A stretch of DNA of 44,027 nucleotides from Clostridiales bacterium (GTDB taxonomy: Bacteria; Bacillota; Clostridia; Lachnospirales; Lachnospiraceae). The stretch lies in NCBI GenBank assembly GCA_021204085.1, contig JAJPZY010000118.1, forward strand, positions 10,426-54,452, read 5' to 3'. Each line of letters begins with the position of its first letter. The stretch's first letter is position 1. A program made the position numbers and the translations under genes. The notes beneath the pieces were generated by a model. It had not been told where the DNA came from and did no database searches. It was given only the letters and a program-made list of their open reading frames with translations. Positions 1-44,027 of this stretch are shown here, piece by piece.

Positions 1-179
1 GACTGATTTTTCTCCTTCTCCATTCTCGTCCGTATCTCCTTGCAGGAATCCAAAAATTCATGAATAAAATATCTTAGACAAACCGACAAAAGATTGTTCC
101 GGCTACCTAAAGCTATAACGCATGCCTCTGCCGCATCCAACAATAAGATACCGGCTTACCTGTCAAAAAAGTCGTGTAT
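1..179. other. Left-edge intergenic sequence with a repeat remnant
   Basis: No coding region is supported here. It lies downstream of the capA-like gene. Positions 27-46 hold CGTCCGTA followed a few bases later by TGCAGG, in a pyrimidine-rich setting very like the repeat units at 21.5 kb. It is probably the end of another array of the same family that continues outside the window, but one half-unit does not prove this. Confidence 0.4.
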
Positions 180-20602: not shown

Positions 20603-20630
20603 AATGATACCTTTTGTCCCATGTATCATT
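20603..20630. promoter_or_regulatory. Small hairpin at the lipoprotein stop codon
   Basis: AATGATAC (20603-20610) is complementary to GTATCATT (20623-20630). The upper arm includes the stop codon of the upstream lipoprotein gene. There is no T run, so a terminator role is doubtful. Confidence 0.3.
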
Positions 20631-21285
20631 CATATAATACATATACCAGCACATCCGCTCCATCCTCCGCATCTACGGAAACCTTACTCTTTCCGGTGAT
20701 TGATGCGAAATCTGCAGAAACATATTTTACCGTTCCCGGAACAACCACATCGACGGCGTCACCGATGATCAGCACTTTCAGATCATCCTCTCCGGCGATC
20801 TCGCTGCCCGAAATATAAGATGAAATAATTGTTCCCTCTATGACAGAAGAATCACTCTCCTCATCCTCCGTATCATCACTCGCCGTTTCCGTATCCGCCG
20901 AAATAAAATCCAGATCAAAATCATATCCGGCTGACTGTGCCTGAACAACACTTCCGGAAAACAGCTCTGTTCCGGTAAAATCCGCGTAAGTATCCGCACT
21001 GTCATAAGTAATGGTCACATATGCAGTTCCATCTTCCACCTTATCCTTCGAGACTTTGATACTTCCGTCATTCTCTCCTGTCCAGGCATCCACCTCGGAA
21101 TCGACAAAAGAAGAAAGCTCATCGGCATCATAGTAGGACGCCTCAAAATCCTCCGCAATGTACTCCACGATCTTTCCGTTCTTTTTTAACTCAATCGTGT
21201 TCTCCGTTACAGCCGTGCCCCCGCAGGACGCTAAGGCAAAAAATGAGGCTGCCGCCAGCACAGGAACTGCTATTCTGATCTTCAT
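20626..21285 (-). CDS. Hypothetical lipoprotein
   Basis: The 219-residue protein starts at the ATG at 21285 ([16 protein letters not shown]), with AGAGGA upstream, and has a clear lipobox (ALASCGG). The mature part is acidic and Ser/Thr-rich with no family I recognise. A tyrosine- and aspartate-rich first half ([33 protein letters not shown]) is followed by an Asp/Glu/Ser linker and a C-terminal strand-rich region ([21 protein letters not shown]). It is presumably anchored on the outer face of the membrane. It lies directly upstream of glyS, 61 bp away, but there is no functional reason to link them. Confidence 0.72.
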
Positions 21286-21480
21286 ACTGATCCTCTTCTT
21301 TCCTGTCAGAATCCGTTCTTTCCTATTCATAATGTAACAGCAAATTCTAACAAAAACCCATCGATGATAAAATGATGAAATACGAACCATTCACAGTTTA
21401 TACACTAAAAAGGACTTTGACAAGTCCTTTTCCGGTAAAATCTTTTCTCAATTATTTTTCAAAGGTTACTCCATTATCTT
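21286..21480. other. Intergenic sequence upstream of the lipoprotein gene
   Basis: Apart from the likely promoter zone of the lipoprotein gene, and the start of the repeat array at its upper end, I see no gene here. Confidence 0.4.
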
Positions 21481-21489
21481 TTTCATTCC

Positions 21490-21825
21490 ATATACGGACT
21501 ACTTTTCTGTACCAAACATTTTCGTCCGTTCTTTCATTCTGCTTCTACGGACGATTTTTTCTTTCTTCTTGTTTCGTCCGTACTTCTCTGCAGTCCATAC
21601 GGACGATTTCCTCTTTCTCTTCTTGTTTCGTCCGTACTTCTCTGCAGTCCATACGGACGATTTCCTCTTTCTCTTCTTGTTTCGTCCGTACTTCTCTGCA
21701 GTCTCTACGGACGATTCAACCTTCTCTTCTTGTTTCGTCCGTACTTCTCTGTAATCTCTACGGACGATTCAACCTTCTCTTCCTGTTTCGTCCGTACTTG
21801 GCACACGGAATAGACGACGGATTCA
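21490..21825. repeat. Array of ~53-bp palindromic tandem repeats
   Basis: CGTCCGT begins at 21523, 21575, 21629, 21683, 21736 and 21789, giving spacings of 52, 54, 54, 53 and 53 bp. Each full unit is CGTCCGTA, ~14 bp, then (A)TACGGACGA, then a pyrimidine-rich spacer (TTTCTCTTCTTGTT). The palindromic arms are conserved while loop and spacer vary; the middle units are almost identical and the ends decay. The array fills the recO 3' region and holds no supported gene; apparent reading frames through it are artefacts of the repeat. Confidence 0.92.
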
Positions 21826-21873
21826 ACCTGTAAAATATACCGTTTTTCAACCTCTGTTGTATCCGTCCAGCCT

Positions 21874-22731
21874 TTAACCGAGCAGCTCCAGCGAATGGAA
21901 CTCCCGATCTACATAAAGCTTCAGATATCGCTCCACAATCGCGCTGACTTTCTCATACACTGACTCGGTCACCTTAAAAGTGTAAAGTTTCTCCACAGGA
22001 GAAGCTACTATGTACTGCAGTGTATACAGTGCCGCGGCATCCAGCGGATAGCCGGCAATTTTCGGTCTCTGCACCACGCCATTCGGATATACGCCCGTTT
22101 TGTCCGGCTGACTTTCCACCATCCCTGATCTATTTACTGCACCGACCTGCCGGACATCCGTTACTCCCGCCGGATAACCTGCCATCTTCCCGCAGCAGAC
22201 ACTGCAAAGCACGCCCCTTTTTTCCACAGAAAACAGGGACAGCCCCTCCTTTTTTCCGCAGGACACACAGGAAAACACCCGGGGACTGACTCCGTAAATC
22301 ACCAATGTCTTCAATTCATAAATTGTACGCACCAGACGCACATCCAGGCTCTTCACACTCAGAGCCCGGAGGGTCTGATACAGAAGCTTCAGCTGATCCG
22401 TACCGTCGTCGCCGGGCTGGGTGAAATAGTCCGCCACCTCCAGAAAATAGCAGCCATAACAGGTTTTTTCCAGATCCGTATACAGGTCACGAAAATAATT
22501 CTGAATCTCCGCTTTCACAACTGTGTAAGCGTCACGGCCTTCGTAAGCCTCAAATCTTCCGAAGCAGAACAGCTCTGTTCCCGCCTGCATGGCGCTTTTC
22601 GCACGCCGCGCGCCGCGCGCAAAAGCAGTCACTTTTCCCCGTTCTCTGGTAAGTATCGTAATTCTCTTATCGTATTCTCCCGCAGGAGCAACTTTCAGAA
22701 TCATTCCCGTCAGGATACAAGTCTGCCCCAT
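21874..22731 (-). CDS. recO: DNA repair protein RecO
   Basis: RecO loads RecA on single-stranded DNA bound by SSB (RecFOR pathway). The N-terminal OB fold begins with LTGMILKVAPAGEYDKRI, and RERGKVTAFARGARR is typical. The zinc-binding region has Cys155/Cys158 (CVSC) and Cys176/Cys179 (CSVC). The protein is 285 residues, longer than the usual ~250. The excess is a segment at about 184-230 between the zinc finger and the C-terminal helices, which has two AGYP motifs. It lies at the end of the M16C-era-yqzL-recO cluster. Confidence 0.93.
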   Translation of the reverse strand: MGQTCILTGMILKVAPAGEYDKRITILTRERGKVTAFARGARRAKSAMQAGTELFCFGRFEAYEGRDAYTVVKAEIQNYFRDLYTDLEKTCYGCYFLEVADYFTQPGDDGTDQLKLLYQTLRALSVKSLDVRLVRTIYELKTLVIYGVSPRVFSCVSCGKKEGLSLFSVEKRGVLCSVCCGKMAGYPAGVTDVRQVGAVNRSGMVESQPDKTGVYPNGVVQRPKIAGYPLDAAALYTLQYIVASPVEKLYTFKVTESVYEKVSAIVERYLKLYVDREFHSLELLG

Positions 22732-32665: not shown

Positions 32666-32830
32666 ATTTGGGTGATATACGGATTTCTTCGCGCGATGCG
32701 CTCTCGAAATCCTACATCCATTCGGAATCCGCCCTACCGGGCTACTTCCTCATGTCTGTTCGGGTCCCTAAGTCATAAAAGCAGATGCCCGCATCTGTTT
32801 TATGACTTTTGTCCCCTATATCACCCAAAT
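32666..32830. mobile_element. Inverted-repeat element at the pstB 3' end
   Basis: ATTTGGGTGATATA (32666-32679) is the exact complement of 32817-32830, which is the last codons and stop of pstB. Between them lie GGATTTC/GAAATCC, GCCC-TACC-GGGC and a strong 17-bp hairpin (32771-32807, one bulge). The nested structure with 14-bp ends resembles a MITE-like or structured RNA element, but the end repeats may equally be a simple transcript fold. Confidence 0.45.
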
Positions 32831-41422: not shown

Positions 41423-43837
41423 ATGAAATACGGCCATTTTAACGACCAGGCAAAAGAATTTGTGATTACTACCCCCGCCACTCCGCTTCCCTGGATCAAC
41501 TATATTGGTTCGGAGGATTTTTTCGGGCTGATTTCCAATACCGGAGGCGGATATTGTTTTTACCGGGACGCACGGCTTCGCCGGCTGCTGCGTTTCCGCT
41601 ACAACAATCCGGCAGGAGATGCAGGCGGACGCTTTTTCTATATCAAGGAGCAGAATCAGCAGGCCTGGAGCCCCTGTTTTCTCCCCTGCAAGACAGATCT
41701 TGATTCATACACCTGCCGCCACGGCATGGGATACACGATTTTCGAATCCGGGAAAAACAACCTGTCAGCCTCCGTCACCATCACAGTGCCAATGGGTGAA
41801 TCCTGCGAGCTGCACCTTCTCACTTTGAAAAATACCGACAGCGAGAAAAAAAAAGTTTCCTGCTATGCAGCCGTGGAGTGGTGCCTCTGGGACGCCGTAG
41901 ATGATTCCCAGAATTACCAACGCAACCTAAGCACCGGTGAAGCAGAGGTTGAAGCAAACCATAACGGCGCTTCCGTTTTATACCATAAAACAGAATACCG
42001 TGAACGGCGCGATCATTACGCTTTCTACGGGATGACTCCCGCCGCTGATGGATACGACACCGATCGGGAATGTTTTACCGGACGTTTCGGCGGGTGGGAA
42101 AACCCTGACTGCGTGTCAGAATCCCGCAATCAACAATCCGTTGCAAGAGGCTGGTATCCGATCGCCTGCCAGAGAAAAGATTTATGTCTGGCTCCAGGTG
42201 AAGAGACTTCACTTGTACTGGTACTCGGTTATGCGGAAAACCCCCGCGACCGAAAGTTCATCTCTCCCGGTGTTATCCGAAAAGACGCTGCTCACCGCCT
42301 GATAGGGAAATATCGTACCAAAGCAGATGTAGAACTGGTCCTGGATGAGCTTGCTGCATACTGGGACTCTCTGCTCGGACGGTTCACACTTCAGTCATCG
42401 GAGCCGTGTCTGAACCGCATGGTTAATATCTGGAACCAGTATCAATGTATGGTCACCTTCAATATGAGCCGCAGTGCCAGTTACTACGAGACCGGAACCG
42501 GCCGGGGCATGGGATTTCGTGATTCCTGCCAGGATCTCCTCGGCTTCGTGCATATGATACCGGAGCGGGCCAGGGAACGAATTCTGGATATCGCTGCTGT
42601 ACAGTTTGCGGACGGCGGCGCCTACCACCAGTATCAGCCGCTGACCAAACAGGGCAATGACACCATCGGTTCCGGCTTCAATGATGACCCGCTTTGGCTG
42701 ATCGCAGCCGCTGCCGCTTATATCAAAGAAACCGGCGATGCGGAAATTTTGGAGGAACCGGTTCCTTTTGATCATGTTCCCGGCAGCGAGGTGCCTTTGA
42801 TGGAGCATTTACGCCGCAGTTTTGATTATACACTCAGCCACATCGGTCCCCACGGCCTTCCGCTGATCGGACACGCAGACTGGAATGACTGCCTGAACCT
42901 CAACTGCTTCTCCGAAGAGCCAGGCGAAAGTTTCCAGTGCCTTTCTCCGAAAGACGCTGACAAATCAAACGCGGAATCCGTCTTTATCGCGGGTATGTTT
43001 GTCCTTTACGGACGTGAGTATGCGCAGCTTAACAGCCGCTTCGGCGATCCGAAAGAAGCCGCTCGCGCAGAGGAAGCTGTTTCGCGCATGGAACAGGCTG
43101 TCATCGCCAACGGATGGGATGGAGACTGGTATATCCGTGCCTATGATGCCGAGGGGAATAAAGTCGGAAGTAAAGATTGCGAAGAGGGAAAGATTTACAT
43201 TGAGCCGCAGGGATTCTGCGCCATGGCTGAGATTGGAAAAGAAGAAGGTCTCTGCGACCGGGCACTGGATTCCGTCAACCAGTACCTGACGTTTGATTAT
43301 GGTACGGAGATTTTATGGCCCAGATATACAAGATATTACAAAGAACTCGGCGAGATTTCCAGCTATCCGCCCGGATATAAGGAAAACGGCGCTGTGTTCT
43401 GTCACAATAATCCATGGGTCAGCATCGCGGAAGCCATCCGTGGAAACGGGAAGCGGGCCTTTGACATCTACCGCCGCGTCTGCCCAGCCTGGACGGAAGA
43501 GTTTTCTGAGATTCACAAGACAGAACCTTACGTCTACAGTCAGATGGTAGCCGGCCGGGATGCCGAGGTTCCGGGAGAAGCAAAAAACTCCTGGCTGACA
43601 GGCACCGCCGCCTGGAGCTTCGTGAATGTAAGCCAGTATATCCTGGGCATTCGCCCCGATTATGACGGGCTCAGGATCCGGCCCTGCCTGCCGGACTGGA
43701 TGGAAGAATACACCGCCACCCGCGTATACCGCGGTGCCGTGTACCATATCCACGTTGTAAATCAGAAGAAAGGCGGCGAAACCTTAATTCCTTTTGCAGA
43801 GGGACAGACAGAATACAGCGTTGAAGTAATCTGTTGA
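41423..43837 (+). CDS. Cellobiose phosphorylase (GH94)
   Basis: The enzyme probably splits cellobiose with phosphate into glucose 1-phosphate and glucose in the cytosol, saving an ATP. The 804-residue length suits cellobiose phosphorylase; cellodextrin phosphorylases are longer. The N-terminal beta-sandwich starts with MKYGHFNDQAKEFVITTP and EDFFGLISNTGGGYCFY. The (alpha/alpha)6 barrel has TGTGRGMGFRDSCQDLLGF, the general-acid region GHADWNDCLN (Asp486/Asp489; the second is the likely acid), and PPGYKENGAVFCHNNPW. AAGGAGG lies 8 nt before the ATG. It faces away from the LacI-type gene and transporter. A related GH94 specificity (for example laminaribiose) cannot be excluded. Confidence 0.9.
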   Translation: MKYGHFNDQAKEFVITTPATPLPWINYIGSEDFFGLISNTGGGYCFYRDARLRRLLRFRYNNPAGDAGGRFFYIKEQNQQAWSPCFLPCKTDLDSYTCRHGMGYTIFESGKNNLSASVTITVPMGESCELHLLTLKNTDSEKKKVSCYAAVEWCLWDAVDDSQNYQRNLSTGEAEVEANHNGASVLYHKTEYRERRDHYAFYGMTPAADGYDTDRECFTGRFGGWENPDCVSESRNQQSVARGWYPIACQRKDLCLAPGEETSLVLVLGYAENPRDRKFISPGVIRKDAAHRLIGKYRTKADVELVLDELAAYWDSLLGRFTLQSSEPCLNRMVNIWNQYQCMVTFNMSRSASYYETGTGRGMGFRDSCQDLLGFVHMIPERARERILDIAAVQFADGGAYHQYQPLTKQGNDTIGSGFNDDPLWLIAAAAAYIKETGDAEILEEPVPFDHVPGSEVPLMEHLRRSFDYTLSHIGPHGLPLIGHADWNDCLNLNCFSEEPGESFQCLSPKDADKSNAESVFIAGMFVLYGREYAQLNSRFGDPKEAARAEEAVSRMEQAVIANGWDGDWYIRAYDAEGNKVGSKDCEEGKIYIEPQGFCAMAEIGKEEGLCDRALDSVNQYLTFDYGTEILWPRYTRYYKELGEISSYPPGYKENGAVFCHNNPWVSIAEAIRGNGKRAFDIYRRVCPAWTEEFSEIHKTEPYVYSQMVAGRDAEVPGEAKNSWLTGTAAWSFVNVSQYILGIRPDYDGLRIRPCLPDWMEEYTATRVYRGAVYHIHVVNQKKGGETLIPFAEGQTEYSVEVIC

Positions 43838-43844
43838 TAATCAG

Positions 43845-43888
43845 ACAGGCGGTCGATTTTGCAGACAAAGCCGATTTCGACCGCCTGT
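43845..43888. terminator. 12-bp hairpin after the GH94 gene
   Basis: ACAGGCGGTCGA (43845-43856) is exactly complementary to 43877-43888. It begins 8 bp after the stop codon. No T run follows on the plus strand, so it may be a weak terminator or a stabilising 3' hairpin. Confidence 0.6.
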
Positions 43889-43912
43889 ACGTACCCAATT
43901 GCTGTATTTTAT

Positions 43913-44027
43913 GATTTGGTCCGTATGTTTTCCGGCGGTATACGGACGAATTCGCTATTTTTGACGATTTAGTCCGTACATTCCCTGGCGGCATACGGAC
44001 TGTTTTGCTATTTTTGGTGATTTGGTC
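43913..44027. repeat. Second ~53-bp palindromic repeat array (cut by window end)
   Basis: GATTT(G/A)GTCCGTA begins at 43913 and 43966, and GATTTGGTC at 44019 starts a third unit, an exact 53-bp period. Each unit has GTCCGTA, ~15 bp with GGCGG(T/C)ATACGGAC, then a GCTATTTTTG spacer. Arms and period match the 21.5-kb array while loops and spacers differ. Confidence 0.88.

Follow-up and report, generated by a model that had tools for sequence, protein, structure and literature searches.

A MITE-like element of one Lachnospiraceae genus contains phased arrays of inverted arms, the probable sites of a predicted DNA-binding protein

Results

A MITE-like element with an internal array lies next to recO

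The window analysed here, a stretch of 44,027 nucleotides (G000:C106:10426-54452) from a 2.93-Mb draft genome (G000), contains an array of short inverted arms with a period of 53 bp, and arrays of this kind are the interior of a MITE-like element, whose ends and target-site duplication were missed in the original prediction of a palindromic repeat array. Our explanation, which we consider probable, is that an old MITE of one Lachnospiraceae genus scattered phased sites for a predicted double-strand DNA-binding protein, and that selection keeps the arms of these sites. The arrays are carried by a group of bacteria of the gut and the rumen.

The main array is located at 21493..21796, with no strand assigned, and consists of six complete R-F units. 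The reverse (R) arms start at 21493, 21546, 21598, 21652, 21706 and 21759, and the forward (F) arms at 21523, 21575, 21629, 21683, 21736 and 21789, with steps of 52, 54, 54, 53 and 53 bp between the F arms. The array opens with the R arm at 21493 (TACGGACT), with no F arm ahead of it. The distance between arm starts is 23 bp from F to R and 29-31 bp from R to F. It had been claimed that six CGTCCGT starts each carry a partner about 14 bp later; the six F arms were found, but an R partner follows 23 bp on in only five of the six cases, the F arm at 21789 having none, and the gap within a pair is 15 bases as measured from 8-base arms. A search of the window for paired arms, in which up to one mismatch was allowed, gave seven matches, all exact; in 100 dinucleotide-preserving shuffles the mean was 0.05, and no shuffle gave as many as seven.

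The left end of the mobile element was recognised at 21451..21499 on the + strand (position 21451 was added by eye); it begins with the tip ATTATTTTTCAAAGGTTACTCC and closes in the first R arm. The right side (21797..21873, no strand assigned), which lies before the stop codon of recO, is eroded, and no recognisable terminal repeat was found in it. The right neighbour is recO (21874..22731, - strand; Pfam RecO_C 1.8e-27, RecO_N 7.8e-18), and the left neighbour is a gene at 20626..21390 on the - strand, which has no Pfam match and looks by eye like a lipoprotein gene. A promoter-like TTGTCA ... TAAACT was seen by eye between this gene and the element. Elsewhere in the window, a Clostridiales-1 RNA (RF01699) was detected at 32673-32823 (-) with 106.4 bits.

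Two further arrays lie at the borders of the window, which is the piece between two scaffold gaps, each of them breaking an outer array. The second array, predicted near 43913-44027, was borne out and runs from 43888 (by eye) to the end of the window (43888..44027, no strand assigned), with R arms at 43888, 43941 and 43994, F arms at 43918 and 43971 and the start of another F arm at 44024; the R arm at 43888 is TACGTAC with one mismatch, and it and the F start at 44024 were assigned by eye. This array is cut by the scaffold gap and continues past it. Directly ahead of it is a gene for a glycoside hydrolase of family 94 (41423-43837, +). At the other border, what had been noted as a trace at 27-46 is real, and its identity is the last F arm (27-34) of a third array, of which the window holds the right edge (1..60, no strand assigned; the end of an R arm at 1-6 by eye), the rest being beyond the upstream scaffold gap (G000:C106 10203-10315). 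The arrays break assemblies in practice: nine of the 58 arrays described below contain or touch a scaffold gap, and 12 more are at contig ends, where 1.3 were expected. Since 21 of the 58 arrays are at a gap or a contig end, the assembled unit numbers may be too low.

Arms alternate with a rigid spacing

Sixty loci were fetched, and 58 of them hold 61 array chains; in L016 and L028 no chain exceeded the score cut, and these two are not counted among the 58. Eight stretches fetched later held a chain in four cases and none in the other four. The arms of the 58 loci, TACGGAC and GTCCGTA, follow each other alternately, mostly at distances of 23 and 30 bp, which add up to 53 bp, or about five helical turns. 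The F-R spacing (n=220) was 23 in 210, 24 in 7 and 22 in 3 cases, and the R-F spacing (n=252) was 30 in 213, 29 in 24, 31 in 12 and 32 in 3 cases; 12 further chain steps skip an arm (52-54 bp). The chaining allowed 22-24 bp for F-R, 28-32 bp for R-F and 52-54 bp for single-arm steps, and wider deviations would not show. The like scan of 171,602 bp of shuffled sequence gave no chain of equal score. Where at least the neighbouring 60 bp of flank were known, the chains begin with R at 43 of 50 left ends and finish with F at 45 of 52 right ends. From the 23/30 spacing it follows that the distance from one 7-bp core centre to the next is alternately 31 and 22 bp, or roughly three and two helical turns.

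In a profile made from one unit of each of 52 loci, with reverse complements included and the arms picked at up to two mismatches, the arm core holds about 1.6-1.9 bits per base, KAWWT beyond it is weaker, and the 15-base loop is near 0. The picking at two or fewer mismatches and the narrow spacing limits raise the apparent conservation of the core and of the spacing. The outermost arms are weaker than the inner ones, with 5.5% against 3.0% mismatches per base. In G006 (L031, L032 and L033), one arm of a pair, on one side only, is often GTCCGTT or AACGGAC in place of GTCCGTA or TACGGAC, which is possibly a species dialect.

Ends, target-site duplication and the search for a transposase

The flanks of some arrays have a common end of about 49 bp (GTTACTTTTCANNNGTTAG ends). 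In most of the flanks inspected an end could no longer be recognised, yet the arms persist. Both ends were recognised in L018, L026, L027 and L212 (E<0.05), in L019 with a weaker right end (E 0.11), and in L236. L212 is a complete copy of 170 bp with four arms, in which the element from GTTACTTTTCA to TGAAAAGTAAC is bordered on each side by CAGTACTC. Among these six elements, a target-site duplication is perfect (8/8) in L212 and 7/8 in L027, and none was found in L018, L019, L026 or L236 (the last by eye). The size between recognised ends is 170 to 515 bp in five copies, with a scaffold gap included in L018 and L019. Open reading frames that overlap arrays have fewer than 155 codons, with two exceptions: one of 608 codons shares 73 bp with the L030 array, and another, of 455 codons, runs across that of L006. 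The element fits a MITE in its terminal inverted repeats, its target-site duplication and its small size without coding capacity.

A sequence-only model, R1, was built from 18 ends. At E<=0.01 it found 30 places in five of the 20 genomes of the genus, namely its own 18 members and 12 new ones. The left end in the window, G000:C106:31877-31924 (window 21452-21499), is a copy outside the alignment of the model and was matched with 28.4 bits and an E of 5.3e-6 for the genome. By eye, some of the 12 new places resemble old ends from which an array is absent, and at least one (G000:C26) resembles a chance match. Over 250 genomes of the family, R1 matched only the genome of the window itself and, weakly, G117. 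G011 and G015 carry arrays, and among the 150 candidates scored in each of them R1 matched no end at E<=0.01.

No transposase-bearing parent with R1 ends was seen in the 20 genus and 250 family genomes, in which at most 150 and 24 candidates per genome, respectively, were scored and part of the matches were read far on both sides. One flank has GTCCGTATAAT in common with a sequence that we take to be an IS256 end; this sequence has 100% matches in plasmid records and, in the one record opened, adjoins an annotated IS256-family transposase. IS256 was rejected as the driver, because PF00872 (IS256-type) was found in five of the 20 genomes and in none of the seven array-rich ones (G000, G001, G002, G006, G007, G011 and G015), and the similarity of flank and IS256 end is not clearly beyond shuffles (0.057). 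An IS256-type transposase may have been lost. The REP/BIME repeats, which go with RAYT, are likewise dispersed intergenic palindromic repeats in clusters. A Y1_Tnp (RAYT) match is present in eight of the 20 genomes and, of the array-rich ones, only in G002, G007 and G015; with no match in the other four (G000, G001, G006 and G011), and with ends and a target duplication in the present element, this system is not supported. The genomes are drafts, so the absence of PF00872 and of Y1_Tnp is not proof.

Copies were found in Lachnospiraceae and Clostridiales records

The array is real and belongs to a dispersed family, as had been proposed: the pattern TCCGTN-N15-NACGGA has 53 matches in the genome of the window against two for the reversed control, and among 50 listed matches, 45 were assigned to arrays, at 14 loci. 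One array is probably split between contigs C93 and C133, since their loops match. Among the 20 genus genomes, paired-arm counts were 67 in G007, 64 in G001, 48 in G002, 22 in G015, 21 in G006 and 10 in G011, with controls of 1 to 4, and the other 13 had 0 to 8 matches against 0 to 7 in controls. A stricter initial search found matches in nine of 41 genomes, all nine within the 20 of the genus, and zero in the 21 genomes outside it; up to 3 matches occurred in its controls, so little weight can be given to the single matches in G005, G011 and G012. A three-arm pattern run over 84,980 species genomes gave 92 stretches, all from Lachnospiraceae or Clostridiales MAG records, which span 16 accession prefixes as counted from the titles. 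The genome and its relatives, in which further copies and a regular period had been proposed as a check, hold many copies with a regular period.

A virus origin was rejected, as the three-arm pattern has no match in the IMG/VR viral contigs. In that collection, 30 stretches have a single paired-arm match, with no further F arm in the next 60 bases (by eye), and one exact end pattern searched there gave no match. A role as an uptake signal was rejected as well: GTCCGTA outside arrays is not unusual, with 71 occurrences against a median of 47 for 630 7-mers of the same composition (70th percentile). In the library searched, no matching account of miniature, interspersed, palindromic or tandem repeats in Lachnospiraceae was found, and published papers containing both arm strings look unrelated by title, among the matches listed. 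We agree with the original prediction that the array is not CRISPR, because only the arms are constant and the spacers inside an array resemble each other.

Arms are kept while filler and ends drift

In 14 orthologous comparisons, some of which have a locus in common, plain alignment gave differences at 41 of 882 sites in the arms, 602 of 2232 in the spacers, 170 of 963 in the 48-bp end zone and 641 of 3936 in the outer flank. Small indels occurred in arrays at 0.58 per 100 bp, as compared with 1.14 for the end zones and 0.84 for the flanks. Because unit gain and loss make plain alignments exaggerate spacer change, units were matched by the spacer alone. In the matched units of 19 comparisons, the arms differed at 18 of 504 and the spacers at 182 of 1404 sites; with one pair per ortholog group, the values were 10 of 308 (3.2%) and 82 of 858 (9.6%), respectively (p = 0.0002). 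The arms change at about a third of the spacer rate, and the constraint is therefore moderate. The end zone drifts like the flank, and the arms do not. Selection on the arms, beyond shared descent, is well supported by these comparisons, and the regular period favours selection on the spacing as well. The arms are also kept alike by the turnover of units within arrays.

These comparisons bear on a purely selfish MITE, in which the arms would be additional sites for the transposase, close to the ends, and would be maintained solely through the transposition of copies with good sites. The mobile ends and the target duplication agree with it, and other transposons are known to have several inverted binding motifs near their ends. 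We nevertheless regard it as unlikely, because fixed orthologous copies keep the arms while the end zone drifts like the flank, because the array-bearing G011 and G015 had no end matching R1 at E<=0.01 among the 150 candidates scored in each, and because neither a transposase with these ends nor, in the seven array-rich drafts, PF00872 was found.

Units turn over, and arrays come and go at the recO locus

The number of units differs between orthologous arrays, and the loops of L030 and L095 match two units out of register (by eye). The mean loop likeness was 0.606 within an array, 0.590 between orthologous arrays, 0.366 between other loci of the same genome, 0.357 between different genomes and 0.325 in shuffles; the ortholog mean includes L033, which was not retained as an ortholog of L086 and was left out of the divergence counts. 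Unit sharing between loci is rare: a loop likeness of 0.8 or more was found in four pairs, L022/L024, L032/L033, L026/L027 and L084/L104, of which the first two may be halves of one array. Such turnover, with loops alike within an array and not across the loci of one genome, is also what would be seen if the arms were sites of a recombinase or nuclease that amplifies the units, so that they persist without benefit to the host. This satellite drive seems quite unlikely to us, since the arms change more slowly than the spacers even in units matched between species and no recombinase was identified in the search for PF00872 and PF01797.

Next to recO, where neighbours were judged by eye, G000 has the array, and 12 genomes (G002, G003, G005, G007, G008, G009, G012, G013, G014, G016, G018 and G019) carry a similar lipoprotein gene there and lack the array. 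In four genomes the neighbour is a different gene, which stands with an array in G011 and G015 and without one in G006 and G010. G017 retains a decayed remnant; the contig of G001 stops too soon for this comparison, and G004 is without a recO match. In G010 the array was deleted, because it is missing together with the end of recO (the last codons) that G006, G011, G015 and G017 keep. A single array is dispensable, as the whole array is gone in G010 (L250 as compared with L251 of G015). G010 keeps another array, which has about 50 bp of flank in common with a G015 array (by eye). The RecO protein of G011 (L248) has an extra stretch ahead of its C-terminal part that looks repeat-like by eye. 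Paired-arm counts differ widely between sister species, with 22 in G015 and 6 in G010. In a RecO tree, the array-rich species fall into two groups mixed with array-poor ones, and the deep forks are weakly supported; from this topology the element is neither dated nor tied to one clade.

Core changes are not compensated, and gene contexts look ordinary

In the 7-bp arm core, 98 changes were one-sided in F-R pairs (n=220) and 117 in R-F pairs (n=252), and no compensated change was found, against 1.6 and 1.8, respectively, by chance. Same-change pairs were below chance at the eighth arm base (10 against 23 and 22 against 27) and slightly above chance at the ninth (11 against 7.6 and 13 against 9.4). 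The doubly changed form GTCTGTA-N15-TACAGA is not enriched, with four single matches in 20 genomes, the reversed control matching in three. With every core mispairing left uncompensated, selection is not acting on hairpins. By their sequence the arms are able to pair, and the slight excess at the ninth base is in the direction expected of pairing; strings of RNA hairpins acting in transcripts, one of the readings offered originally, are nevertheless very improbable in view of the absent core compensation, the eighth base and the doubly changed form, and also because a hairpin needs no fixed 15-base loop. Fixed spacing with changing filler is the need of a protein, not of a loop. As to the proposal that phase and palindrome are both selected, the arms and the period are indeed kept while the filler varies, but the palindrome is not, each arm being held alone and not for its pairing.

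The context of the 42 arrays flanked by a gene on both sides was tandem in 30, divergent in 7 and convergent in 5, as compared with 114, 26 and 27 of 167 other gaps; the genes were called as longest open reading frames, orthologs were counted more than once, 16 of the 58 arrays were left out as lying at contig edges, and the orthologous sets L094/L098/L115 and L091/L100/L117 were called inconsistently. On these rough gene calls, there is no clear orientation bias relative to the neighbouring genes, which also speaks against RNA hairpin strings. No transposase or recombinase, as a neighbour acting in trans, was present among the 25 largest protein groups over the array loci, and the largest group, from 14 loci, looks like an ABC transporter (by eye). 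The placement between genes and the rigid half-site spacing would suit operator arrays of a transcription regulator for nearby genes. The neighbours are varied, though, the gene orientation resembles that of other gaps, and the promoter-like sequence of the left gene is also present in relatives without the array (by eye), which makes operator arrays a rather improbable reading.

Discussion

Protein binding at intervals of about five helical turns, as proposed originally, is the best reading of the regular arm period. In the mechanism that we propose, a non-coding element is bounded by ends of about 49 bp and an 8-bp target duplication and contains the unit R(TACGGACKAWWT)-N-F(AWWTMGTCCGTA) in n copies. 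The ends and target duplication of some copies, together with the loci with and without an array, show that it spread by transposition long ago. The half-site arrays persist, all facing one side of the helix, the core centres lying alternately 31 and 22 bp apart for a period of 53 bp. A sequence-specific double-strand DNA-binding protein would occupy the arms, probably cooperatively along the array. Selection holds the arms, whereas filler and transposon ends drift, and the number of units shifts by tandem gain and loss. Neither this binding protein nor a transposase with these ends was found. Because the gene neighbourhoods look ordinary and the orientation is not clearly biased, our best guess for the role of the array in the cell is a structural or locus-marking one. 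More tentatively, and with considerable doubt, the mobile element may have seeded a genus-specific chromosome-marking system, with at least 14 phased arrays in the genome of the window and a predicted protein assembling cooperatively on them, in the manner of many small centromeres or nucleoid anchors; the host would have retained this system once the transposon was dead.

Several known systems share features with these arrays. The dRS3/NIME repeats of Neisseria have inverted arms with a variable centre and occur in arrays, and their sequence and spacing differ from those of the present arrays. The sopC centromere of plasmid F consists of 43-bp tandem repeats near whole helical turns, each with inverted half-sites; it is one plasmid locus, whereas the present arrays occupy many chromosomal loci. 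Closest in kind are MITEs or modular repeats that enclose an array of inner repeats, namely BrickBuilt and BOX. BrickBuilt of Porphyromonas gingivalis is, in the description cited here, an intergenic MITE in which small inverted repeats form the ends and a tandem array lies inside, present in 19 copies, of which only four have both ends and three of those four have target duplications (PMC4596501). It resembles the present element in its MITE ends, inner array and intergenic position, but its inner unit is described there as a plain 23-base tandem repeat without spacers (PMC4596501), whereas the present arrays have inverted arms in alternation at 23/30 bp, with filler that varies between loci. 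According to the portion of the work cited, BOX of Streptococcus pneumoniae has end modules and a variable number of inner boxB modules, which are gained and lost, and is dispersed on the chromosome, with slow new insertions (PMC3049150). It is likewise modular and dispersed with inner modules that vary in number, but in that portion BOX was modelled as whole sequences and discussed as RNA folds (PMC3049150), whereas here only the arms are conserved and the core pairing is uncompensated.

For finding the predicted protein, TACGGACKA arms at 23/30 bp offer a defined bait. If our explanation is true, this genus would provide a natural case of a bacterial transposon whose interior outlived its ends as phased protein-binding arrays, and the loci with and without an array in several species would allow the gain, turnover and loss of such arrays to be watched.
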